Source: a virus | Strand: one strand, 5' to 3' | DNA length: 33,052 nt | Virus record (IMG/VR): IMGVR_UViG_3300032285_002179 | Span: 1 to 33,052 of that record | In this document: piece after piece, positions 6,054 to 25,868 of the stretch | Position numbering within the stretch: the stretch's first letter is position 1 | Layout: the number at the start of each line of letters is the position of its first letter | The notes under the pieces: model-generated | What the model was told of the DNA's origin: nothing | What the model saw: the letters and a program-made list of their open reading frames with translations, nothing else | Database searches by the model: none | Position numbers and translations under genes: made by a program

Positions 6054-8344
6054 GTGACGATGACTTCATCCCGTTCGTTCCTACCTCCCCGGAGCCCAAG
6101 CGGGGCGCTTCTGGGGAGGACTTTGTCCCCTTCAAGGAAACGCCACAGATAGGACTGCCCGAGGCCATCGGGCGGGGCGTGCGGAGTGGCTTCCTCCTCA
6201 ATCAGGTCCCGCAGGTCGCGGCCTTGGCCGAGGCGTCCGGCATGGTCCCGGAGCTGAAGTATCCCGAGGGTGGAACCCGCCCCAGCTACGGCCCCATTGA
6301 GGCCCTCGTCGGCGCGGGACGCCTCGGCTTGGAGAAGCTCGCGCCCGATACCTTTGGCGGGGGCGCGGGCCAGCGTTATGAGGAGCGCCTTGCATCCGAA
6401 AAGGCGCGTCAGGCCGCCTCGCGTGAGCAGTACCCCGGCACGTCAATGGCGTCAGAAGTTGGCGGCTCAATCCTGAACCCCATCTCCAAAATCATCCCGG
6501 TTCCAGAGGCGGGAAAAACTTTCCTCCAAAATGCAATGAGGGCCGCGCCGCCGTCCGCCGCGCTGGGGGCCATTCAGGGCTCCGGCGAGGGCGAGACGTG
6601 GTCCGAGAAGGGCATGAATGCCCTCAAGGGCCTCATTGGCGGCGGCGTCGCTGGCGGCGCTGTCAGCGGCGCTTTGGGCAAGGTTATGCCCGGCGCTAGG
6701 GCTCCCTCCGGCGAGCCGTCACCCGCAGACATTGTCGGCGCGGCGGAGCGCCTGTCCTCGCGCGGCGCGCCCCTGCAAGTTCCCAAGATTGTGGCCTCCA
6801 ATGACGAGCTGCTCAGCACTCTTGGCAGCACGGCAAAGGAGCTGCCATTTGTCGGCAAGCCATTGACTGAGGCGGCGGAAAGAACTGCCGGGCAAATTGG
6901 CTCCAAAGTTAGCGAACTTTCTGGTAACCAGACACGCCTCAGCGCGGGCGAGACGGCCAAGGACGCGCTGACTAATTGGATCGGGCCACGCTCGCAGAAG
7001 CTCGTTTCTGACGCCTACGACAAGGTCGATAACCTCATCACGACCCCGGCCCTTCAGCCGTTAGATGCGACGCGGAAGGTCGCGCAATCCGTTCAAGATG
7101 AGATGAACAAAAGCCAGAAAGTCCTCGGTGAGGATCCGGCTGTAAAATTCCTGATGAATGCCATCACAGACCCCGCCGGACTGGACTATCAGGGCCTGAA
7201 GGGGCTGCGTACTCGCATCGGCCAGATGCTGGATGACCCCAGCGAAATTTACAAAGATGCCTCGCCATCGCTGCGCAAGCTCTATGCGGGCCTGACCGAA
7301 GACCTCAAGGCTGTGGTCGAGAAAAGTGGCGGGCCCCGCGCGCTCAAGGAGTTTGAGGCGGCCAACGCATTCAACAAGGAAATCCAGAGCCAGCGTGAGG
7401 CCCTGCTGAAGATCACTGGGACCAAAGAAAGTTCCAAATCGGGCGATCAAATATTCGATACCCTGCTCAGGCAGGCCGGATCTTCGGGGGCCACAGACAT
7501 TCCCAAGCTTGCCTTGGCGCAGAAGTCCATGACGCCGCAGGAGTGGGCGCAAGTCAGCCGTGGCGTCATTGATAACTTGTCGATCAACAAGACGACAAAT
7601 GCCTTCGACCCCGCGAGCTTGTTTCGCCAATACGGCAAGCTATCGGATCAGGGGAAGGACATCCTATTTGGCCCGGCCAAGGCCCCATCATACGGCGTCC
7701 GGCACGCCCTTGATGACCTCGCGACCGTTGGGAAACGCCTTGATAGGCTCAACGCAATTGCATCAAATCAGGGCGGCGGCGAGCGCAAAATCCTGACTGC
7801 TGCTGAATTGTTTGGCCTCGTCTTTCACCCCCTCAAAGCAATTCCTGCGGTTGTCGCCGGGCGCGCATTTTCTTCAGTTATGGCTGAGCCCGCCACGGCG
7901 CAGTCAGTCGCGCGCTGGGCGAAGGCCTACGAAGTGCTGGGCAGCAAGCCATCAAGCGCCACGGCGCAGGCATTTGTTCGCGCGTCGCAAAACCTTGCGG
8001 CTGAAGTTGGCGGGCGTCACGGCCTTCCCGACAAGGAGGCCATCCTCAATGCTGTGATTGGCGGGACCGAGCTGGCCAAGCTTATCAGCAAGACCCACGG
8101 ATACCTCACCGACTTCTCGCCGCCTAGGGAAGCGCCCGATCAGGCTAATCGCCACAATGACACAGTCTTCGACACTGGCCGTTCCACCGGCGGGCGCACG
8201 GGCCGCGCCACCGGCGGCGCAGTCAACTTGATGGCGCTGTCCAAGGCCGCCAAGAAGCGCGTCACGCAAGTCACCGAGCCCCTCCTGAACGAGAGCGACG
8301 ACACCGTCGCCCACGCTCTGGCAGTCGCTGGAAAGAACATCTGA
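6050..8344 (+). CDS. Putative internal virion / DNA-ejection protein (764 aa)
   Basis: The start overlaps the previous stop as ATGA, so translation is probably coupled. The N-terminus is acidic with a repeated DFIPFVP / DFVPFKE motif. Residues about 185-220 form a glycine-zipper-like run (LKGLIGGGVAGGAVSGALGKVMPG) of the kind that can enter membranes. Residues 280-620 are predominantly helical. The C-terminal end (TGRATGGAVNLMALSKAAKK, then LLNESDDTVAHAL) matches my memory of a conserved tail in uncharacterised phage proteins. No enzymatic motif was found. Size, glycine zipper and place beside the S74 gene fit a head-internal protein released at infection, but this is inference. Confidence 0.7.
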   Translation: MSDDDFIPFVPTSPEPKRGASGEDFVPFKETPQIGLPEAIGRGVRSGFLLNQVPQVAALAEASGMVPELKYPEGGTRPSYGPIEALVGAGRLGLEKLAPDTFGGGAGQRYEERLASEKARQAASREQYPGTSMASEVGGSILNPISKIIPVPEAGKTFLQNAMRAAPPSAALGAIQGSGEGETWSEKGMNALKGLIGGGVAGGAVSGALGKVMPGARAPSGEPSPADIVGAAERLSSRGAPLQVPKIVASNDELLSTLGSTAKELPFVGKPLTEAAERTAGQIGSKVSELSGNQTRLSAGETAKDALTNWIGPRSQKLVSDAYDKVDNLITTPALQPLDATRKVAQSVQDEMNKSQKVLGEDPAVKFLMNAITDPAGLDYQGLKGLRTRIGQMLDDPSEIYKDASPSLRKLYAGLTEDLKAVVEKSGGPRALKEFEAANAFNKEIQSQREALLKITGTKESSKSGDQIFDTLLRQAGSSGATDIPKLALAQKSMTPQEWAQVSRGVIDNLSINKTTNAFDPASLFRQYGKLSDQGKDILFGPAKAPSYGVRHALDDLATVGKRLDRLNAIASNQGGGERKILTAAELFGLVFHPLKAIPAVVAGRAFSSVMAEPATAQSVARWAKAYEVLGSKPSSATAQAFVRASQNLAAEVGGRHGLPDKEAILNAVIGGTELAKLISKTHGYLTDFSPPREAPDQANRHNDTVFDTGRSTGGRTGRATGGAVNLMALSKAAKKRVTQVTEPLLNESDDTVAHALAVAGKNI

Positions 8345-11360: not shown

Positions 11361-11532
11361 GGCGGGGCCTCCCATTCTTGCGGGCTGGCGCGCCGTTCTT
11401 TTTGGCTATCTCCCGAACGTAATGGAGGGACTTTAAGCTAAAGAGGCGGGCTATGAGGGCCACCTTCTCGCCCGCAAGATACCGCTGGGTGATAAGCTTA
11501 TTCCTCAATTTACGGTCTGCGTGACTGGCCAT
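11353..11532 (-). CDS. Small HTH-like basic protein (59 aa)
   Basis: The start at 11532 is set by the conserved leader ATGGAGATTGATATG, whose last ATG is used; the longer reading has no RBS. The product (MASHADRKLRNKLITQRYLA, then EKVALIARLFSLKSLHYVREIAKKNGAPARKNGRPRHD) has a helix-turn-helix arrangement like short resolvase- or sigma-type HTHs and a very basic C-terminus. It probably binds DNA, but no family was identified. The preceding gene's stop TGA lies inside the leader, which would couple the two. Confidence 0.6.
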   Translation of the reverse strand: MASHADRKLRNKLITQRYLAGEKVALIARLFSLKSLHYVREIAKKNGAPARKNGRPRHD

Positions 11533-11533
11533 A

Positions 11534-11731
11534 TCAATCTCCATATGTCCTTCCAAAAGTCGTATTTTTCTCAGCGCGGATGTCTTGATTGCGCCACGTC
11601 CAGCACTCTCCGTCATCCTGAAAGCAGACCCAGCACAAGTCGTGCTCAGCCCCGTAGTCAATCAGGACGTGCGCCAGCGCCTTGCCGCGCGGTGTCACGA
11701 CGGGCAGCGGCGGATCAAGGCGCAGCATCAT
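11534..11731 (-). CDS. Small conserved phage protein (65 aa)
   Basis: Two adjacent ATGs (11731 and 11728) follow GGGAGAAAC; the second has better spacing. The product contains ALAHVLIDYGAEHDLCWVCF and ECWTWRNQDIRAEKNTTFGR. The WTWRNQDIR segment is, from memory, recurrent in short unnamed phage proteins of alphaproteobacteria. CWVC could be a metal-binding pair. The last codons, GGA GAT TGA, supply the Shine-Dalgarno sequence of the next gene. Function unknown. Confidence 0.65.
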   Translation of the reverse strand: MMLRLDPPLPVVTPRGKALAHVLIDYGAEHDLCWVCFQDDGECWTWRNQDIRAEKNTTFGRTYGD

Positions 11732-19037: not shown

Positions 19038-19955
19038 ATGAGATTATTGATCAGTTTTTCTGGAGGTGAAACGTCAGCGTGCATGACTAAGTGGATTTTG
19101 GACAATTGGCGGTCTCGCTATGACGAGATCATGGTTGTCTTCGCCAACACCGGGGAAGAGAACGAGCAGACGCTTGAGTTCGTGAAACGGTGCGATGATC
19201 ATTTTGGTTTCAATACGATTTGGATCGAAGCTGTGCAGTTTCATGGTGAGCGCCGCGCCCCAAGCTTCCGTGTCGTCAACTTTGAGACGGCAGCCCGAAA
19301 TGGTGCCCCGTTTGAAGACGCCATTAAAAAGTACGGAATACCGAACCAGAAATTCAAAGATTGCACGCGCAACCTGAAGCAGAAGCCGATTGAAGCCTAC
19401 GCCAAGGCGCAGGGCTGGCTTGTGGGGACTTACGATCTGGCTATTGGCATCAGAAGCGACGAGATCGACAGGATCTCATCGCGCGCTGAAACGCGGCGGA
19501 TTGTGTATCCGTTCATCAAAGAAAACCCCATGACCAAACCAAACATCAACACATGGTGGTCCAAGCAGCCATTCCGTCTTGAGCTTCGTGGATACCAAGG
19601 CAATTGCAAATGGTGCTGGAAAAAGTCGCTCAGGAAGCATTTCACGCTTATCCAAGAAAACCCCGAGGTCTACGATTTCCCGCGCCGGATGGAGGGCCTT
19701 TATGGACACGTTGGGCATGAGTTTGTGAAAGACACCAGCGCCTATCCGTTGCCTCTTAATTATCGCCGGACGTTCTTTCGCGGAAACAAAAGCGTGGATG
19801 ATCTTTTCGATGAGTACGAAGAGAAGAAATTGACTTTTGTCCCGGCTGGGGATGACGCAGCGGTATTTGATGCGGATTTCGACATTGGGGCCGGGTGTGA
19901 AGAGAGCTGTGAAGTCTTCTCTGACGAGGACAATATGGAGGCCCAAGATGCGTAA
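19038..19955 (+). CDS. PAPS reductase-like PP-loop ATPase (305 aa)
   Basis: The start at 19038 has GGGAG 8 nt upstream and gives MRLLISFSGGETSACMTKWI, with the PP-loop SGGxTS at the very N-terminus; the 12 codons from 19002 lack an RBS. MVVFANTGEENEQTLEFV and KFKDCTRNLKQKPI follow as in the PAPS reductase/sulfurtransferase superfamily, where ATP is split to AMP and PPi. A GNCKWCWKKSLRK motif (CxxC) is unlike classic CysH and could hold metal. The acidic C-terminal tail is unusual. Options are sulfur metabolism or a DNA/RNA modification step; the substrate is unknown. More AT-rich than its neighbours. Confidence 0.75.
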   Translation: MRLLISFSGGETSACMTKWILDNWRSRYDEIMVVFANTGEENEQTLEFVKRCDDHFGFNTIWIEAVQFHGERRAPSFRVVNFETAARNGAPFEDAIKKYGIPNQKFKDCTRNLKQKPIEAYAKAQGWLVGTYDLAIGIRSDEIDRISSRAETRRIVYPFIKENPMTKPNINTWWSKQPFRLELRGYQGNCKWCWKKSLRKHFTLIQENPEVYDFPRRMEGLYGHVGHEFVKDTSAYPLPLNYRRTFFRGNKSVDDLFDEYEEKKLTFVPAGDDAAVFDADFDIGAGCEESCEVFSDEDNMEAQDA

Positions 19956-21074: not shown

Positions 21075-21308
21075 TCAGGCGTGCGCGGCCTGAGACCGGA
21101 GTAGGCGGGAGACCTCCTCTGCCACCCAGTCCATGTCGAGGCGTCCCGCCGCCATTGCGTTGAGCAGGATGGCGACGGATTGCGGGATTTCGTTTTTGCC
21201 CGTGATCCAGTACTGGACTGCCCTGACCGTGTTGCCGGTCAGGAGCGCGACGTCGCTGTTGTTGAGGCCCAGCGCGTGGGCCGTCTCGGTGAACTCGGAG
21301 GGGGTCAT
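21075..21308 (-). CDS. Cro/CI-type HTH transcriptional regulator (77 aa)
   Basis: MTPSEFTETAHALGLNNSDVALLTGNTVRAVQYWITGKNEIPQSVAILL is a standard HTH_XRE-like domain (helix 2 NNSDVALLTG, recognition helix TVRAVQYWITG). The C-terminal 25 residues, DMDWVAEEVSRLLRSQ, probably dimerise. The start overlaps the previous stop (TAATG) with AAGGGA upstream. Last gene of the unit driven by the cassette promoter at 22.2 kb, so it is a candidate to bind the GCGAATTTAGTTCGC operator and repress its own unit. That pairing is inference. Confidence 0.8.
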   Translation of the reverse strand: MTPSEFTETAHALGLNNSDVALLTGNTVRAVQYWITGKNEIPQSVAILLNAMAAGRLDMDWVAEEVSRLLRSQAAHA

Positions 21309-21847: not shown

Positions 21848-21865
21848 CGGGGGCCGAAGCCCCCG
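21848..21865 (-). other. Intercistronic hairpin, 7-bp stem, UUCG loop
   Basis: Minus strand CGGGGGC-TTCG-GCCCCCG carries the hyperstable C(UUCG)G tetraloop. It lies 9 nt after the stop of the 98-residue gene and is followed by a C-rich, G-poor linker leading to the next RBS. Confidence 0.7.
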
Positions 21866-21874
21866 CCCGGGTGA

Positions 21875-22171
21875 TCAGGCCGCCTTCTTGGCCTTCTTGG
21901 CCTTGATGCGGATGACGGGGAATGCCGCGCCCTCGACCTTGCAGCCGTCGATCTGCGCCTGCGTCAGGCCCAAGGCCAGCAAGGCCTTTTCGTTGATGGA
22001 CTTGCGAGACTGGACGGCGACGTCGAGGTCGGCGGTCTCGCCCGCGAGGAAGCCGTAGCCGCCGACGATGGCGATGACGTCGTCCTTGGCCATTGAGAGG
22101 ATGCCGTTGGCCTCGTCAGCCTGAGCCTTGGCGGCGAGGTAGACTTCGACGGCGGCGATGGTGTTGGTCAT
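21875..22171 (-). CDS. Small early-region protein (98 aa)
   Basis: First gene of the unit driven by the cassette promoter at 22.2 kb. The leader ATGGAGATCGATATG sets the start (22171). MTNTIAAVEVYLAAKAQADE is helical. Then GYGFLAGETADLDVAVQSRKSINEKALLALG resembles a short strand-helix module seen in phage proteins, and a Lys/Ala tail, KAKKAKKAA, ends it. It may contact nucleic acid through that tail. Function unknown. Confidence 0.65.
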   Translation of the reverse strand: MTNTIAAVEVYLAAKAQADEANGILSMAKDDVIAIVGGYGFLAGETADLDVAVQSRKSINEKALLALGLTQAQIDGCKVEGAAFPVIRIKAKKAKKAA

Positions 22172-22235
22172 ATCGATCTCCATAAGGTTACGGTCTCTCT
22201 TGACCGTGATTTGATCTTACGCGAACTAAATTCGC
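22169..22235 (-). repeat. Control cassette repeat, copy 3 (5 differences)
   Basis: 67-bp unit holding start codon, leader, 5' hairpin, -10 and operator. It is identical over its promoter-proximal 42 bp to the copies at 23604 and 24182 and differs at five positions in the leader-proximal part. Its hairpin (ACGGTC-AAGAGA-GACCGT) gains one base pair. Confidence 0.85.
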
Positions 22236-22242
22236 AGGTCAA
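22214..22242 (-). promoter_or_regulatory. Cassette promoter P4 with spacer operator
   Basis: TTGACC (22242-22237), 17 bp, TAAGAT (22219-22214). The spacer holds GCGAATTTAGTTCGC (22235-22221), an inverted repeat GCGAA/TTCGC. A repressor there would block RNA polymerase directly. It drives the genes from 22171 down to the HTH regulator. Confidence 0.8.
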
Positions 22243-22560: not shown

Positions 22561-22597
22561 ATCAATCTCCATTGGGGTGTCGGTTTGGAGGGGACTG

Positions 22598-22615
22598 GAG
22601 GGGCCTGAGCCCCTC
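22598..22615 (-). other. Intercistronic hairpin, 7-bp stem
   Basis: Minus strand GAGGGGC-TCAG-GCCCCTC overlaps the stop codon of the 71-residue gene and precedes the 102-residue gene. No U-tract follows. Confidence 0.65.
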
Positions 22616-22829
22616 ACCCGAAATCCGCCAGAAGGTCGGCGAGATCTTCATCACTCAGCTCTTCCGGCTCAATGCCCAGAAACTTGTACTCGGCGTCGAT
22701 TTCCTTTTCGAGCTGCTCGACCCAGACGGCGCGCAGCGCGCGCTCGGCGTCGGACTTGGCGGCGAAGAGGCGGACGCGCTCGTGGGAGAGGTGAAGCTCA
22801 AGGGCGTGGAGGTGGGTCAGGTCGGTCAT
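22614..22829 (-). CDS. Small acidic early-region protein (71 aa)
   Basis: The exact leader sets the start at 22829; the extra upstream residues of a longer frame lie in the 5' hairpin. MTDLTHLHALELHLSHERVR, then ERALRAVWVEQLEKEIDAEY is a helical hairpin. The end, GIEPEELSDEDLADLLADFG, is acidic and looks like a small interaction peptide. First gene of the P3 unit. Confidence 0.65.
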   Translation of the reverse strand: MTDLTHLHALELHLSHERVRLFAAKSDAERALRAVWVEQLEKEIDAEYKFLGIEPEELSDEDLADLLADFG

Positions 22830-22841
22830 ATCAATCTCCAT

Positions 22842-22872
22842 AAGGGTCATGGCTACATCAGCCATGACCCTT
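22842..22872. promoter_or_regulatory. 12-bp perfect inverted repeat at P3 leader
   Basis: AAGGGTCATGGC - 7 nt - GCCATGACCCTT. On the minus strand its inner part (AUGGC...GCCAU) would be the first nucleotides of the P3 transcript, matching the 5' hairpins of the other cassettes. The outer part overlaps the -10, so it may also act as a DNA site. Confidence 0.65.
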
Positions 22873-22899
22873 TGTATGTGAACTAAATTCGCTAGTCAA
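22871..22899 (-). promoter_or_regulatory. Cassette promoter P3 with spacer operator
   Basis: TTGACT (22899-22894), 17 bp, TACAAA (22876-22871). The spacer holds GCGAATTTAGTTCAC, one base off the common operator. The -35 touches the stop codon of the previous gene. It drives the 71- and 102-residue genes. Confidence 0.7.
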
Positions 22900-23128
22900 C
22901 CGCCTCCTCATCGACCGGCAAAATATTTTTGGCGTCTTCCTTCGGCACCGGCACAAGCACGTATCCGAGGTGCTTGGCGGCCTCCCTGAGCGCCTCGTGG
23001 AGCCTGTCGCGGTGGAACTCGTGGCTGCTGTCGTGGATCCAGTAGCAGAGGGTCGCCTTTTGCTCTGCTTCGCTCAGGGCGATGCGGGCGTGGACATAAG
23101 TTATGTTGTGGGTCAGGTCTACGGTCAT
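22892..23128 (-). CDS. Small early-region protein (78 aa)
   Basis: The leader ATGGAGATTAATATG sets the start at 23128. The product (MTVDLTHNITYVHARIALSE, then CYWIHDSSHEFHRDRLHEALREAAKHLGYVLVPV) is an alpha/beta protein with a His-rich helix and an acidic tail (LPVDEEAVD). No known family. Last gene of the P2 unit. Confidence 0.65.
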   Translation of the reverse strand: MTVDLTHNITYVHARIALSEAEQKATLCYWIHDSSHEFHRDRLHEALREAAKHLGYVLVPVPKEDAKNILPVDEEAVD

Positions 23129-23155
23129 ATTAATCTCCATCAGGTTAAGGGTGGT

Positions 23156-23173
23156 CGGGGGCCGAAGCCCCCG
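23156..23173 (-). other. Intercistronic hairpin, 7-bp stem, UUCG loop
   Basis: Minus strand CGGGGGC-TTCG-GCCCCCG, the same stem and loop as at 21848, lies 7 nt after the 49-residue gene's stop. Confidence 0.7.
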
Positions 23174-23180
23174 GTCTGGG

Positions 23181-23330
23181 TCAGAGGGTGAACTCGTTGG
23201 CGCGGAGGAAGGCGATCTCCTCGGGGGTGGCCATGCACGCCGCCATCATGTGCTTGTTCAGGTAGGTCTGGAGCTTGTTGCGGTTGCTGGCGGTCGGTGC
23301 GGCGCGGTAGGCGTTGATGAGTTTGGTCAT
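23181..23330 (-). CDS. Small early-region protein (49 aa)
   Basis: The leader ATGGAGATCAATATG fixes the start at 23330. Product begins MTKLINAYRAAPTASNRNKL and ends EEIAFLRANEFTL: a helical hairpin with a conserved-looking C-terminal end. I recall close relatives as very short ORFs in phages of alphaproteobacteria. The leader, the gene-length fit between two hairpins and clean codon use support it despite its size. Middle gene of the P2 unit; function unknown. Confidence 0.65.
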   Translation of the reverse strand: MTKLINAYRAAPTASNRNKLQTYLNKHMMAACMATPEEIAFLRANEFTL

Positions 23331-23361
23331 ATTGATCTCCATAAGGTGGGGTGGTGGTCTA

Positions 23362-23379
23362 GAGGGGCCTCAGCCCCTC
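23362..23379 (-). other. Intercistronic hairpin with stop codon in loop
   Basis: Minus strand GAGGGGC-TGAG-GCCCCTC. The TGA of the loop is the stop codon of the 78-residue gene, so a terminating ribosome would sit on the hairpin. Confidence 0.65.
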
Positions 23380-23606
23380 CGGTTGATATGGGCGCAGACG
23401 CGCGCGTTGTGATCTTCAAGGTATTCGCGGATCGTCAACTCCGTCAGGCGGTAGACGTACACGATGCTCTCGCGCCACTGGGGTGTAGTGCCGCTGTGCC
23501 AGTACACGTAGCCCTCACCCTTGCAGAGGCGCTCAGGATGACCGGCGCTGGCGAGGATCTTGTTGACTTCCGAAACGGTGCGGCAGGGGCGGTCAAGGTT
23601 GGCCAT
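23370..23606 (-). CDS. Small early-region protein (78 aa)
   Basis: The exact leader sets the start at 23606. The product (MANLDRPCRTVSEVNKILAS, then YVYWHSGTTPQWRESIVYVYRLTELTIREYLEDH) has an N-terminal helix followed by an aromatic strand region. The shape (a short motif GEGYVYW) resembles small phage proteins I have seen unnamed. First gene of the P2 unit. Confidence 0.65.
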   Translation of the reverse strand: MANLDRPCRTVSEVNKILASAGHPERLCKGEGYVYWHSGTTPQWRESIVYVYRLTELTIREYLEDHNARVCAHINRRG

Positions 23607-23670
23607 ATCAATCTCCATGTGGTGTCGGTCTCTCTTGACCGTGATTTGATCTTACGCGAACTAAATTCGC
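23604..23670 (-). repeat. Control cassette repeat, copy 2
   Basis: 67 bp identical to 24182-24248. It contains the start codon, leader, 5' hairpin CGGTC-AAGAGA-GACCG, -10 and operator. The genes that follow the two copies are unrelated, so the control unit, not the gene, is conserved. Confidence 0.9.
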
Positions 23671-23677
23671 TGGTCAA
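23649..23677 (-). promoter_or_regulatory. Cassette promoter P2 with spacer operator
   Basis: TTGACC (23677-23672), 17 bp, TAAGAT (23654-23649). Operator GCGAATTTAGTTCGC at 23670-23656. It drives the 78-, 49- and 78-residue genes. Confidence 0.8.
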
Positions 23678-23696
23678 CCGCTTTTCTCAAAAAATG

Positions 23697-23990
23697 TCAC
23701 CCGTCAGGGAAATATTTTTTGTAGTGGATCTGACCGGCGTCGGTCAGGGTCGCGATCTCCCACGCGCGCTCCCATGCCTTGACGAGGCTGGGGAAGGTCT
23801 CGCGGCTGTGCGAGCCCGCCGAGTGCAGGGTCCACTTCGCGTTCTTGCAGGGGTGCGTGATGACGGCGGCGAGGATGCGGCTGCCGCCGGGCAGCACAGG
23901 GTCTACATAGACGCCGACCTCGCACCAGCCGCCCTCGCGGCGATCCGTGCGCTTGGTGATGTAGTGGACGCGGCATTCGAGGACGGTCAT
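23697..23990 (-). CDS. Small early-region protein (97 aa)
   Basis: The exact leader sets the start at 23990. MTVLECRVHYITKRTDRREG, then GGWCEVGVYVDPVLPGGSRILAAV gives a beta-hairpin core. Then SLVKAWERAWEIATLTDAGQ is a helix. The composition is balanced and the codon use is like its neighbours. No family recognised. Second gene of the P1 unit. Confidence 0.65.
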   Translation of the reverse strand: MTVLECRVHYITKRTDRREGGWCEVGVYVDPVLPGGSRILAAVITHPCKNAKWTLHSAGSHSRETFPSLVKAWERAWEIATLTDAGQIHYKKYFPDG

Positions 23991-24031
23991 ATCAATCTCC
24001 ATGAGGTGAGGGTGGTCGGGGCTGTTGGTTT

Positions 24032-24184
24032 TTAAGCTTGGATTTGGGTGGCGCTGATTGCGACGTACCCAGCGCGCTTCGCGCAAAGCTTGGCGCGATA
24101 GACTGAGGTTGAGATGATGCAGAAAAAACCGATTTCAGCCGTGACTTTGACGCGGTAAACGGCGGTGGTCTTGGACTTGGTCAT
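24032..24184 (-). CDS. Small early-region protein (50 aa)
   Basis: The exact leader sets the start at 24184. The product (MTKSKTTAVYRVKVTAEIGF, then FCIISTSVYRAKLCAKRAGY) is basic and strand-rich, with a small hydrophobic patch. It is the first gene behind promoter P1, so it should be among the earliest transcribed. No family recognised; its reality rests on the perfect leader and promoter. Confidence 0.6.
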   Translation of the reverse strand: MTKSKTTAVYRVKVTAEIGFFCIISTSVYRAKLCAKRAGYVAISATQIQA

Positions 24185-24248
24185 ATCAATCTCCATGTGG
24201 TGTCGGTCTCTCTTGACCGTGATTTGATCTTACGCGAACTAAATTCGC
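24182..24248 (-). repeat. Control cassette repeat, copy 1
   Basis: 67 bp identical to 23604-23670. It contains the start codon, ATGGAGATTGATATG leader, 5' hairpin (24204-24219), TAAGAT and the operator. Confidence 0.9.
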
Positions 24249-24255
24249 CAATCAA
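24227..24255 (-). promoter_or_regulatory. Cassette promoter P1 with spacer operator
   Basis: TTGATT (24255-24250), 17 bp, TAAGAT (24232-24227). Operator GCGAATTTAGTTCGC at 24248-24234. It faces P5, 45 bp away, across the AT-rich segment with a DnaA box. Confidence 0.75.
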
Positions 24256-24270
24256 CCGCCCTGTGTCCCC

Positions 24271-24279
24271 TGTGGATAA
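24271..24279 (-). other. Perfect DnaA box
   Basis: TGTGGATAA (TTATCCACA on the minus strand) equals the consensus DnaA box. It is followed by an AT-rich run with T7 and A5. It lies between divergent promoters P1 and P5, in a phage that also encodes a DnaA domain IV. One exact 9-mer can occur by chance in this length, so an origin is only a possibility. Confidence 0.4.
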
Positions 24280-24299
24280 CTTTTTTTGAAAAAGATCGC

Positions 24300-24328
24300 T
24301 TGCAATGCGAATTTACTTCGCCTATAAA
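24300..24328 (+). promoter_or_regulatory. Cassette promoter P5 (rightward) with spacer operator
   Basis: TTGCAA (24300-24305), 17 bp, TATAAA (24323-24328). Spacer operator GCGAATTTACTTCGC (24307-24321) is one base off the common form. A 5' hairpin (GCGGTC...GACCCGC, one bulged C) occupies 24335-24353, just before the leader of the 132-residue gene. Confidence 0.75.
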
Positions 24329-24367
24329 TATTGAGCGGTCGCTGATGACCCGCTTATGGAGATTGAC

Positions 24368-24766
24368 ATGAAAATCGCTATCACCGCCGACAACGCCGCC
24401 AAGGTTGAAGCCGCCCTCAAGGCCGTCAACCACGCCTCCGTGGCGCACACCTTCAACACTTTTGATCAGGTCGCCCGCGAGGCCGACAATGCCGAGCGCG
24501 CCCTCCTCGACCTCATCAACAAGGGCGACGCCAAGGGCGCTTTTTACGTCACGGTCAGCGGCGACGCGGTGCCTAACGCCTATCGTTATGCGCGCAAGGG
24601 CACTCGGGTGGTCCTTGAGCGCGGGGCCAAGGGCTGGTTTTTGATCGAGCTGAACGCCGAGCCTGTCTATCAGTCGGGCGGGTCGAAGTGGCTGACGCTG
24701 ACCCCGGCGCAGGACGCGAAGGCCGTCGAGCGGCTGCGCAAGCGATACTCGGTCGGGGCAGCTTGA
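24368..24766 (+). CDS. Early-region protein behind P5 (132 aa)
   Basis: The leader ATGGAGATTGACATG sets the start at 24368. MKIAITADNAAKVEAALKAV, then AHTFNTFDQVAREADNAERALLDL is helical. Then AFYVTVSGDAVPNAYRYARKGTRVVLERG, then GWFLIELNAEPVY is strand-rich. I recall relatives as unnamed phage proteins. It is the only gene between P5 and the GapR-like gene. Function unknown; its control signals put it in the same regulon as the leftward small genes. Confidence 0.7.
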   Translation: MKIAITADNAAKVEAALKAVNHASVAHTFNTFDQVAREADNAERALLDLINKGDAKGAFYVTVSGDAVPNAYRYARKGTRVVLERGAKGWFLIELNAEPVYQSGGSKWLTLTPAQDAKAVERLRKRYSVGAA

Positions 24767-24819: not shown

Positions 24820-25119
24820 ATGACCAATAACCAACTGAAGGCGCTCATTGAACGCATTGAGCGCCTTGAGGCCGAGAAGGCGACTGTCGCCGACGACATC
24901 AAGGAGGTCTACTCCGAGGCCAAGGGCACGGGCTTCGACCCGAAGATCATCAAGAAGGTGATCGCAATCCGCAAGCGGGCGAGCGCCGAGGTCACCGAGG
25001 AACAGGCCCTGATCGACACATACATGAGCGCATTGGGCATGCTCGCCGACACGCCATTCAAGCAGGCGGTCGCGCGTTCCTCCACCACTAACATGCGGGA
25101 TGATCATGCCGACTCGTAA
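24820..25119 (+). CDS. GapR / DUF2312 family DNA-binding protein (99 aa)
   Basis: [48 protein letters not shown], then [15 protein letters not shown] is the DUF2312 signature. In Caulobacter GapR, this domain forms a tetrameric ring around overtwisted DNA ahead of replication and transcription forks and stimulates topoisomerases. GAGGGG 5 nt before the ATG at 24820 fixes the start; the 10 codons before it have no RBS. The 3' end overlaps the small terminase start. A phage copy could relieve supercoiling during phage replication or displace the host protein. Confidence 0.9.
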
Positions 25120-25612
25120 GAAATCAGACGCCCCGACCGAGCCAGCGCGCCCGGTCGGGAGGCCGTCCGCGTACAGCGACAAGATCGCCGACGCCATCTG
25201 TGAGCGCATGCTTGAGGGCGAGAGCCTGATGAAAATATGCAGCAGCGATCAGATGCCGAGCCGCGCGAGCGTTTATCGGTGGTTTGATGCGCGCCCCGAC
25301 TTCGAGGCGAGGTGCGCGCGCGCACGCGAGGGTCTGGCGGACTACCTCCTCGACCGCATTGAGCAGATGGCTGACGCGACGACGGAGGAGAACGTCCAGT
25401 CGCAGAAGGTGAAAATCTCGACGGCGCAGTGGCGGGCGATGAAGATGGCCCCCCGCATCTACGGCGACCGCAGCCGCACCGAGTTGACCGGCGCGGACGG
25501 CGGGCCGATCAACATTAAGGCGACAACCATCGACGCGCGGCAGCTTGAGCCGGAGGCGCGGGAGGCGCTGAAGCAGGCGCTGTTTGCGGCCAAACGCATG
25601 ACAGGAGATTGA
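25106..25612 (+). CDS. Terminase small subunit (168 aa)
   Basis: [20 protein letters not shown]-like N-terminal HTH (here [20 protein letters not shown]), then [20 protein letters not shown], then [25 protein letters not shown] match phage small terminases that recognise the packaging site. The C-terminal half, [20 protein letters not shown], then a Gly/Asp linker, is also typical. Start is ATG at 25106 or at 25100. It overlaps the GapR-like gene end and lies upstream of the large subunit. The last codons GGA GAT TGA supply the RBS of the next gene. Confidence 0.85.
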
Positions 25613-25613
25613 T

Positions 25614-25868
25614 ATGATTGACGCCGACGCTTTGCGCGCCATCGCGGCGCAGATGGAAGACCACGAGGCCTACCGGGCCGACCCGATGGGCATTGAGGCC
25701 ATCGCCCTCGTCAATGCCGCCGACCACATCGACAGCATGGAGCGCACGCTCCGGGCCATCCACGGGATTATCAAGATCCGCATGTACCGTGGCCGCACGG
25801 AGCCCTTCCTGCTCGACATCCAGCGCGCGATCCACGCCGTGCTCGGCCACGCTCATCCCGACACCTGA
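25614..25868 (+). CDS. Small hypothetical protein (84 aa)
   Basis: The leader AGGAGATTGATATG (the recurrent form) overlaps the terminase stop and sets the start. The product (MIDADALRAIAAQMEDHEAY, then ALVNAADHIDSMERTLRAIHGIIKIRMYRGR) is helical with a short basic end. It resembles small helical proteins near packaging genes. Function unknown. Confidence 0.6.
   Translation: MIDADALRAIAAQMEDHEAYRADPMGIEAIALVNAADHIDSMERTLRAIHGIIKIRMYRGRTEPFLLDIQRAIHAVLGHAHPDT

Follow-up and report, generated by a model that had tools for sequence, protein, structure and literature searches.

A conserved 5'-leader hairpin in a repeated promoter module of uncultured, probably alphaproteobacterial phages

In a group of uncultured viruses, probably infecting Alphaproteobacteria, nearly every promoter-driven message of a small-gene cluster is predicted to open with a hairpin that most likely shields the front end of the message from decay. 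As judged from sequence comparison, this is a genuine conserved hairpin of the 5' leader, belonging to a regulatory module that is repeated in an undescribed phage group.

A promoter module with a leader hairpin

The window, that is, the whole stretch analysed, is a virus record of 33,052 bp. It is probably derived from an alphaproteobacterial phage, since a strong GapR-like domain is encoded at 24820-25116 and Paracoccus, Roseobacter, and Rhizobium phages are among the hits of its TerL. A cassette of small genes reads leftward from 24196 to about 21590, with a single divergent gene at 24356, and is served by five promoters (P1-P5). In all five the order of elements is -35, 17-bp spacer containing a dyad, -10, hairpin, and leader GGAGATYGATATG. 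The promoters are the following.

22214-22242, minus strand: promoter P1, with -35 TTGACC, a 17-bp spacer with the dyad GCGAATTTAGTTCGC (22221-22235), and -10 TAAGAT
23649-23677, minus strand: promoter P2, layout as in P1, operator at 23656-23670
22871-22899, minus strand: promoter P3, with TTGACT, operator at 22878-22892, and -10 TACAAA (22871-22876)
24227-24255, minus strand: promoter P4, with TTGATT, operator at 24234-24248, and -10 TAAGAT
24300-24328, plus strand: promoter P5, divergent from P4, with TTGCAA, operator at 24307-24321, and -10 TATAAA

A scan with consensus sequences calls only P1 and P2 sigma70-like. The spacer dyad GCGAATTTAGTTCGC is found at five sites in the record, far above chance. 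The spacer as a whole corresponds to a dyad operator, GCGAA-N5-TTCGC, which is kept in all relatives as well as in a distant phage lacking the hairpin. The hairpins, leaders, and a candidate regulator are as follows.

22191-22206, minus strand: P1 hairpin CGGTC-AAGAGA-GACCG, 6 bp including a flanking A-T pair (22190-22207); predicted fold -8.8 kcal/mol, z -3.7
23626-23641, minus strand: P2 hairpin CGGTC-AAGAGA-GACCG, by exact match and fold
24204-24219, minus strand: P4 hairpin CGGTC-AAGAGA-GACCG, by exact match and fold
22842-22872, minus strand: P3 12-bp DNA dyad with the 7-nt loop TGATGTA, by sequence; its orthologues have the CGGTC hairpin
24335-24353, plus strand: P5 hairpin GCGGTC-GCTGAT-GACCCGC, with one bulge; predicted fold -7.7 kcal/mol, z -2.15
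22169-22181, minus strand: conserved ribosome-binding leader GGAGATYGATATG of P1
22827-22839, 23604-23616, and 24182-24194, minus strand, and 24358-24370, plus strand: the other copies of leader GGAGATYGATATG
21078-21308, minus strand: 77-aa helix-turn-helix protein that may bind the spacer operator (weak HTH_3 hit; PHROG transcriptional regulator)

A stem is present just 3' of the -10 in all five promoter heads. The three copies of CGGTC-AAGAGA-GACCG given in the preliminary description are exact (CGGTCAAGAGAGACCG at 22191-22206, 23626-23641, and 24204-24219 on the minus strand), and no fourth CGGTCAAGAGAGACCG is found anywhere in the 33,052-bp record. Because P1, P2, and P4 are near-copies of one repeat module of about 100 nt (81-84% identical), their hairpins do not represent three independent cases. 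The preliminary description placed such a hairpin at the start of every cassette transcript. This is right in substance and holds for the five operator promoters of the window, though the span it noted, 22842-24353, omits P1 (22191) and the independent cases are fewer than it implies. Its spacing of 6-8 nt from the -10 to the stem agrees with P1, P2, and P4 (7 nt) and P5 (6 nt) but not with P3, where the -10 already contains the beginning of the full dyad and the core comes 5 nt later.

The 12-bp dyad of P3, within which AUGGC...GCCAU had been noted, is perfect as DNA. Only about 5-7 bp of it would be available to RNA, since the final two bases of the -10 already belong to the 5' arm and transcription would start 5-8 nt later. 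The part expected in RNA (22849-22865) is AUGGC...GCCAU plus an inner extension, and its predicted fold from the putative start is -7.3 kcal/mol. The one-bulge stem reported for P5 is found at 24335-24353 on the plus strand as described, and it is predicted to fold as an ensemble (MFE frequency 0.14). The leaders of the window fold beyond chance, as indicated by the z-scores of isolated-leader RNAs (-3.7, -4.0, -3.1, and -2.2).

Note that a leader of the form GGAGATTGATATG also occurs outside the cassette without a promoter hairpin (11530-11542, minus strand; 25604-25616, plus strand). The gene for the 77-aa helix-turn-helix protein adjoins the cassette, and a homologue was found in 12/12 operator-bearing records tested, including the distant phage lacking the hairpin. 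For this reason the protein is the leading candidate for binding the spacer operator, and it may be the repressor of the module.

Retention and pairing of the stem in related phages

Searches with the P1 protein led to 33 viral loci and one genome contig; the P5 protein as query retrieved no viral relative, and an orthologue of it adjoins the cassette in L056. The P1 gene is absent from every phage of the INPHARED set. The nearest isolate by TerL is MW202675 (61%), in which neither the promoter module nor the leader was found. This isolate (MW202675.1) has, near 19600 and 20500, a repeated promoter of its own with another spacer dyad, plus a near-copy (TTGACAC...TTTCGTACGATG...TAGGGT, with no hairpin evident), which may represent an analogous regulon. 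The contig CANCHK010000124.1 (L055), labelled as an Opitutae MAG, contains the P1 gene and the module, and is probably a phage contig binned into that MAG.

The relatives gave 85 operator-bearing promoter heads at first and 97 distinct heads under a wider rule. Among these 97 heads from 33 phage loci, the stem is present in 91. Thus pairing is mostly kept in homologous leaders, where its loss had been named as evidence against the preliminary description: stems are broken in four heads within the family, and two operator promoters of a distant phage (L012/L084) have no hairpin. Since the operator is used there without it, the hairpin is dispensable in that phage. Arms are mostly 4-8 bp, and loops vary in sequence and length (3-8 nt). 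The module precedes 35 unrelated gene families.

The stem starts at an almost constant distance from the operator (SD 1.1 nt); between its end and GGAG the spacing varies more (SD 2.7 nt, range 2-16). The hairpin is also retained in heads with another ribosome-binding site (TCTGGAGCCC), that is, without the GGAGAT leader. From these two observations, the hairpin goes with the promoter and not with the ribosome-binding leader, so far as sequence comparison can tell. The predicted stem position in the family is 6-9 nt 3' of the -10. The base immediately 5' of the stem is A in 73 of 74 heads, and that A is preceded by C in 67 of the 74. C followed by A is a typical YR start. Hence the RNA probably starts at this near-invariant A (+1), with the stem running from +2.

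Some arrangements depart from the common one. The 16-mer of the CGGTC hairpin is also found in several contigs without the operator (L025-L030), of which only L026 is module-like, with a TTGACA-like promoter, the hairpin, and GGAG. Two tandem operators, the second lying over the -10 and the start site (GTGAATTTTCTTCAT then GCGAAGAATGTTCAC), are found at 2379 in L057 and 7928 in L068, and likewise at 6926 and 7928 in L078 and 3460 in L079. Most of these tandem-operator promoters precede orthologues of the P1 gene.

The covariation analysis proposed in the preliminary description was run on 74 distinct heads, aligned by sequence only with MAFFT; this alignment excludes the heads with CCGC stems as well as the L012 head, which lacks the hairpin. 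Pairing of the named stem holds in 90% of cells, compared with 18-44% in slid registers. There are 17 double-changed cells, a number reached by none of the 500 shuffles, although these cells are not independent events and correspond by eye to about half a dozen distinct two-arm changes. The inner pair is C-G in 60 heads, U-A in 8, and U-G in 4. The outer pair is C-G in 40, U-A in 8, U-G in 2, and other in 24, the last being the 24 of 74 heads in which it is unpaired. Between them the three core pairs, GGU/ACC, are nearly invariant over the 74 heads, and conservation is highest in the 5' arm. The preliminary description had hairpins conserved in shape but not in sequence. Pairing indeed persists where stems have changed; "not conserved in sequence" is overstated because the core hardly varies.

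Leaders of orthologous genes differ in the stem (CGGTC/GACCG, CCGC/GCGG, or ATGGC/GCCAT) and yet pair. For example, all 20 of the 20 P1 orthologues are paired, with several stems and loops, and either CGGTC/GACCG or CCGC/GCGG stands ahead of an identical flank, GCAACCTTATGGAGAT. The P3 gene has ATGGC/GCCAT in the window and CGGTC/GACCG in two relatives. One clean compensatory pair is seen between CATGGC-TGATGTA-GCCATG in the window and CACGGC-TGATGTA-GCCGTG in L068. Selection for pairing, as suggested earlier, is borne out by the 91 stems in 97 heads, by covariation exceeding all 500 shuffles and the slid registers, and by orthologous stems that differ and still pair. Pairing appears to matter more than sequence, as in stem-loops of the ompA and papA type, though the core is conserved. 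Comparison of the sequences establishes the architecture of the module, the fixed position of its stem, pairing in changed stems, and retention before orthologous genes.

Predicted folding energies agree with this. With one representative per gene family, the mean MFE is -5.8 versus -2.8 for shuffles (SD 0.28; 0/1000). When 45 nt of coding sequence are included, the local hairpin has a median probability of 0.80; it falls below 0.5 in 23 of 72 heads, whose 5' arm has another predicted partner, often the GACC at the start codon. RNAalifold, run on the complete gapped alignment of mixed heads, gave no consensus structure, and Rfam at gathering score gave no hits in the window. Cells with G-U outnumber those with A-C, 8 versus 2. 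This strand asymmetry is not decisive because the antisense strand is predicted to fold as strongly as the sense strand. A loose test accepting any helix of at least 4 near the start is passed by 79/81 observed and by 48/81 expected by chance. Due to this high chance rate, the covariation and energy tests are relied on.

Possible functions of the hairpin

We lean modestly toward a dispersed module of promoter, operator, hairpin, and ribosome-binding site in which the 5'-terminal stem-loop protects mRNA. The module would consist of a sigma70-type -35, a 17-bp spacer with the dyad operator (GCGAA-N5-TTCGC), and a -10, followed by a start at the conserved A about 6-9 nt downstream. A stem-loop of about 5 bp would extend from about +2 to +17, and a short unpaired linker would lead to GGAGATYGATATG. 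The RNA would thus begin with pppA and the stem directly after it. RppH requires at least two unpaired 5' nucleotides (PMC10667835), as does the Bacillus enzyme (PMC3997798). Protection of the 5' end fits the placement of the hairpin, since only about one nucleotide would be unpaired here. Such an end would be a poor substrate for an RppH-type pyrophosphohydrolase and for 5'-end-dependent RNase E, and the phage mRNAs would live longer. We infer where transcription starts, that the hairpin forms in the cell, and that it protects the mRNA from decay. The fixed distance to the promoter, the near-invariant A, and retention without the GGAGAT leader fit a 5'-terminal element.

Passive carriage is fairly unlikely. 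The module would have been copied between loci by recombination, and A-C/T-GGT, as the initially transcribed sequence, would be tuned to promoter escape and not to structure, consistent with the near-copies P1, P2, and P4, with the occurrence ahead of 35 unrelated gene families, and with the high conservation of the 5' arm. However, changes in the 5' arm are accompanied by changes in the 3' arm (17 double-changed cells; CCGC/GCGG between the same flanks in P1 orthologues), something that promoter escape by itself would not call for. It is also unlikely that the dyad is a DNA site of a dimeric regulator overlapping the start site, with an incidental RNA hairpin. A dyad does lie at the start site of every promoter beside another DNA dyad, the spacer operator; its GGTC/GACC core is nearly invariant, that of P3 reaches into the -10, and antisense folding equals that of the sense strand. 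Against this, the half-sites lie anywhere from 3 to 8 nt apart and change completely (GGTC, GGTT, CCGC, ATGGC, GTCAGC) in the same or related phages, even between orthologous promoters; a dimer that recognises one sequence should put up with neither kind of change. Changed half-sites and loops of 3-8 nt speak against both a DNA site and a loop-binding protein.

The latter is the case of a translational operator for a phage protein, like the RNA sites of T4 gene 43 and gene 32, which we consider quite improbable. The hairpin is located a few nt 5' of the ribosome-binding site and has a common core stem. The top 10 bases of the T4 and RB69 gene 43 operators are identical (PMC3014915), whereas here neither the sequence nor the length of the loop (3-8 nt) is conserved, the distance to the ribosome-binding site varies from 2 to 16 nt, and no RNA-binding candidate was found. 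With loops of 3-8 nt, unrelated sequences, and no conserved loop, the hairpins differ from the gene 43 type at least as to the loop.

That the hairpin insulates or presents the ribosome-binding site, keeping it unpaired, is very improbable. The linker 3' of the stem is often A/C-rich and internal genes also have a hairpin ahead of the same site, but the predicted openness of the site does not meaningfully gain (0.434 with the real hairpin, 0.453 with a shuffled one, p 0.09, and 0.408 with the hairpin deleted, p 0.02). Highly improbable is a switch in which GGUC of the 5' arm pairs by turns with the local 3' arm and with the GACC in the AUGACC of the start region, turning translation on and off: full-context folds predict GGUC-GACC pairing at the start in many heads and the bias toward ATGACC is statistically clear (19/28 promoter-headed families versus 5/32 internal ones, p 5e-5), but Met-Thr starts and ACC codons are common in these phages, families with both types of head have no consistent change of start, and ATGACC is likewise seen with arms other than GGUC (P3 of the window; most heads with CCGC stems start Met-Thr), for which reason the bias is not built on. 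Examples of ATGACC starts, whose GACC is complementary to the GGUC arm, are at 22166-22171 and 22824-22829 on the minus strand.

Internal genes and known systems

Nearly every cassette gene is fronted by a hairpin, in two unrelated styles, because the internal genes mostly have one too. In the window these intercistronic hairpins are the following.

23156-23173, minus strand: CGGGGGC-TTCG-GCCCCCG, before the leader at 23138; no U-tract; predicted fold -16.4 kcal/mol
23362-23379, minus strand: GAGGGGC-TGAG-GCCCCTC, before the leader at 23340
22598-22615, minus strand: GAGGGGC-TCAG-GCCCCTC, before the leader at 22570; predicted fold -15.5 kcal/mol
21848-21865, minus strand: CGGGGGC-TTCG-GCCCCCG, a repeat, before the last cassette gene

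A strong stem is found at 72 of 92 leaders classed as promoter-less by a filter (a handful of which are actually promoter heads). These hairpins are GC-rich, often have a UUCG loop, are unrelated to the promoter hairpins, and vary in sequence among relatives. In most of them, the 8 nt that follow include 0-2 T. Intrinsic terminators were considered and rejected, as there is no U-tract and the terminator-like hits of a scan include none of the hairpins, whether at promoters or between genes. By analogy, they resemble elements of segmental mRNA stabilisation more than of termination. Stable hairpins are found between genes of one operon in the Rhodobacter puf operon. Intercistronic stem-loops also take part in selective RNA processing and stabilisation in E. 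coli (PMC10667835). The hairpins of the cassette are likewise stable and placed between genes of the same operon; unlike those of E. coli and puf, they precede a shared ribosome-binding leader in a phage cassette.

Stem-loops at the 5' end stabilise the E. coli ompA and papA mRNAs, and work on them is cited in PMC3997798. The present hairpins are like these in a stem about 0-2 nt from the predicted 5' end of the mRNA, a variable loop, and an ordinary ribosome-binding site next to it, and unlike in that one module stands before many unrelated phage genes and is coupled to a spacer operator, with stabilisation here a predicted property. Mycobacteriophages of cluster K have SAS/ESAS, conserved start-site sequences of unknown function before many phage genes; the SAS is a 13-bp consensus GGGATAGGAGCCC at the start codon, and about half have an upstream imperfect inverted repeat of 17 bp with a variable spacer of mostly 4-13 bp (PMC3203893). 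A conserved start-site sequence with an upstream inverted repeat before many genes is common to both systems, whereas sequence and host differ and the arms here, of about 5 bp, are at the predicted transcription start. Membership in SAS/ESAS was rejected, since the leader is GGAGATYGATATG and not GGGATAGGAGCCC, and the arms are mostly 4-8 bp versus 17 bp.

T4-type phages have PeSL, small intergenic units of an early promoter and a stem-loop that recur across a variable gene region and seem to be mobile. The module of the window is similar to these cassettes as a repeated unit of promoter and stem-loop. A 5'-terminal stem-loop is an element of a known kind; its use as a phage-wide module joined to a spacer operator has, so far as could be checked in open papers, not been described.

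A broader and more tentative possibility, which we regard as doubtful, is that one helix-turn-helix repressor governs mobile modules and a protective hairpin accompanies nearly every cistron, setting mRNA lifetime gene by gene in an undescribed regulon architecture. If the proposed protection is true, the reusable promoter cassette of this phage family comes with its own operator and also with a built-in safeguard for mRNA 5' ends. The module would then mark a regulon of uncharacterised phage genes, and its dozens of natural variants with matched stems could serve to test how 5' pairing governs mRNA lifetime, possibly in Alphaproteobacteria.
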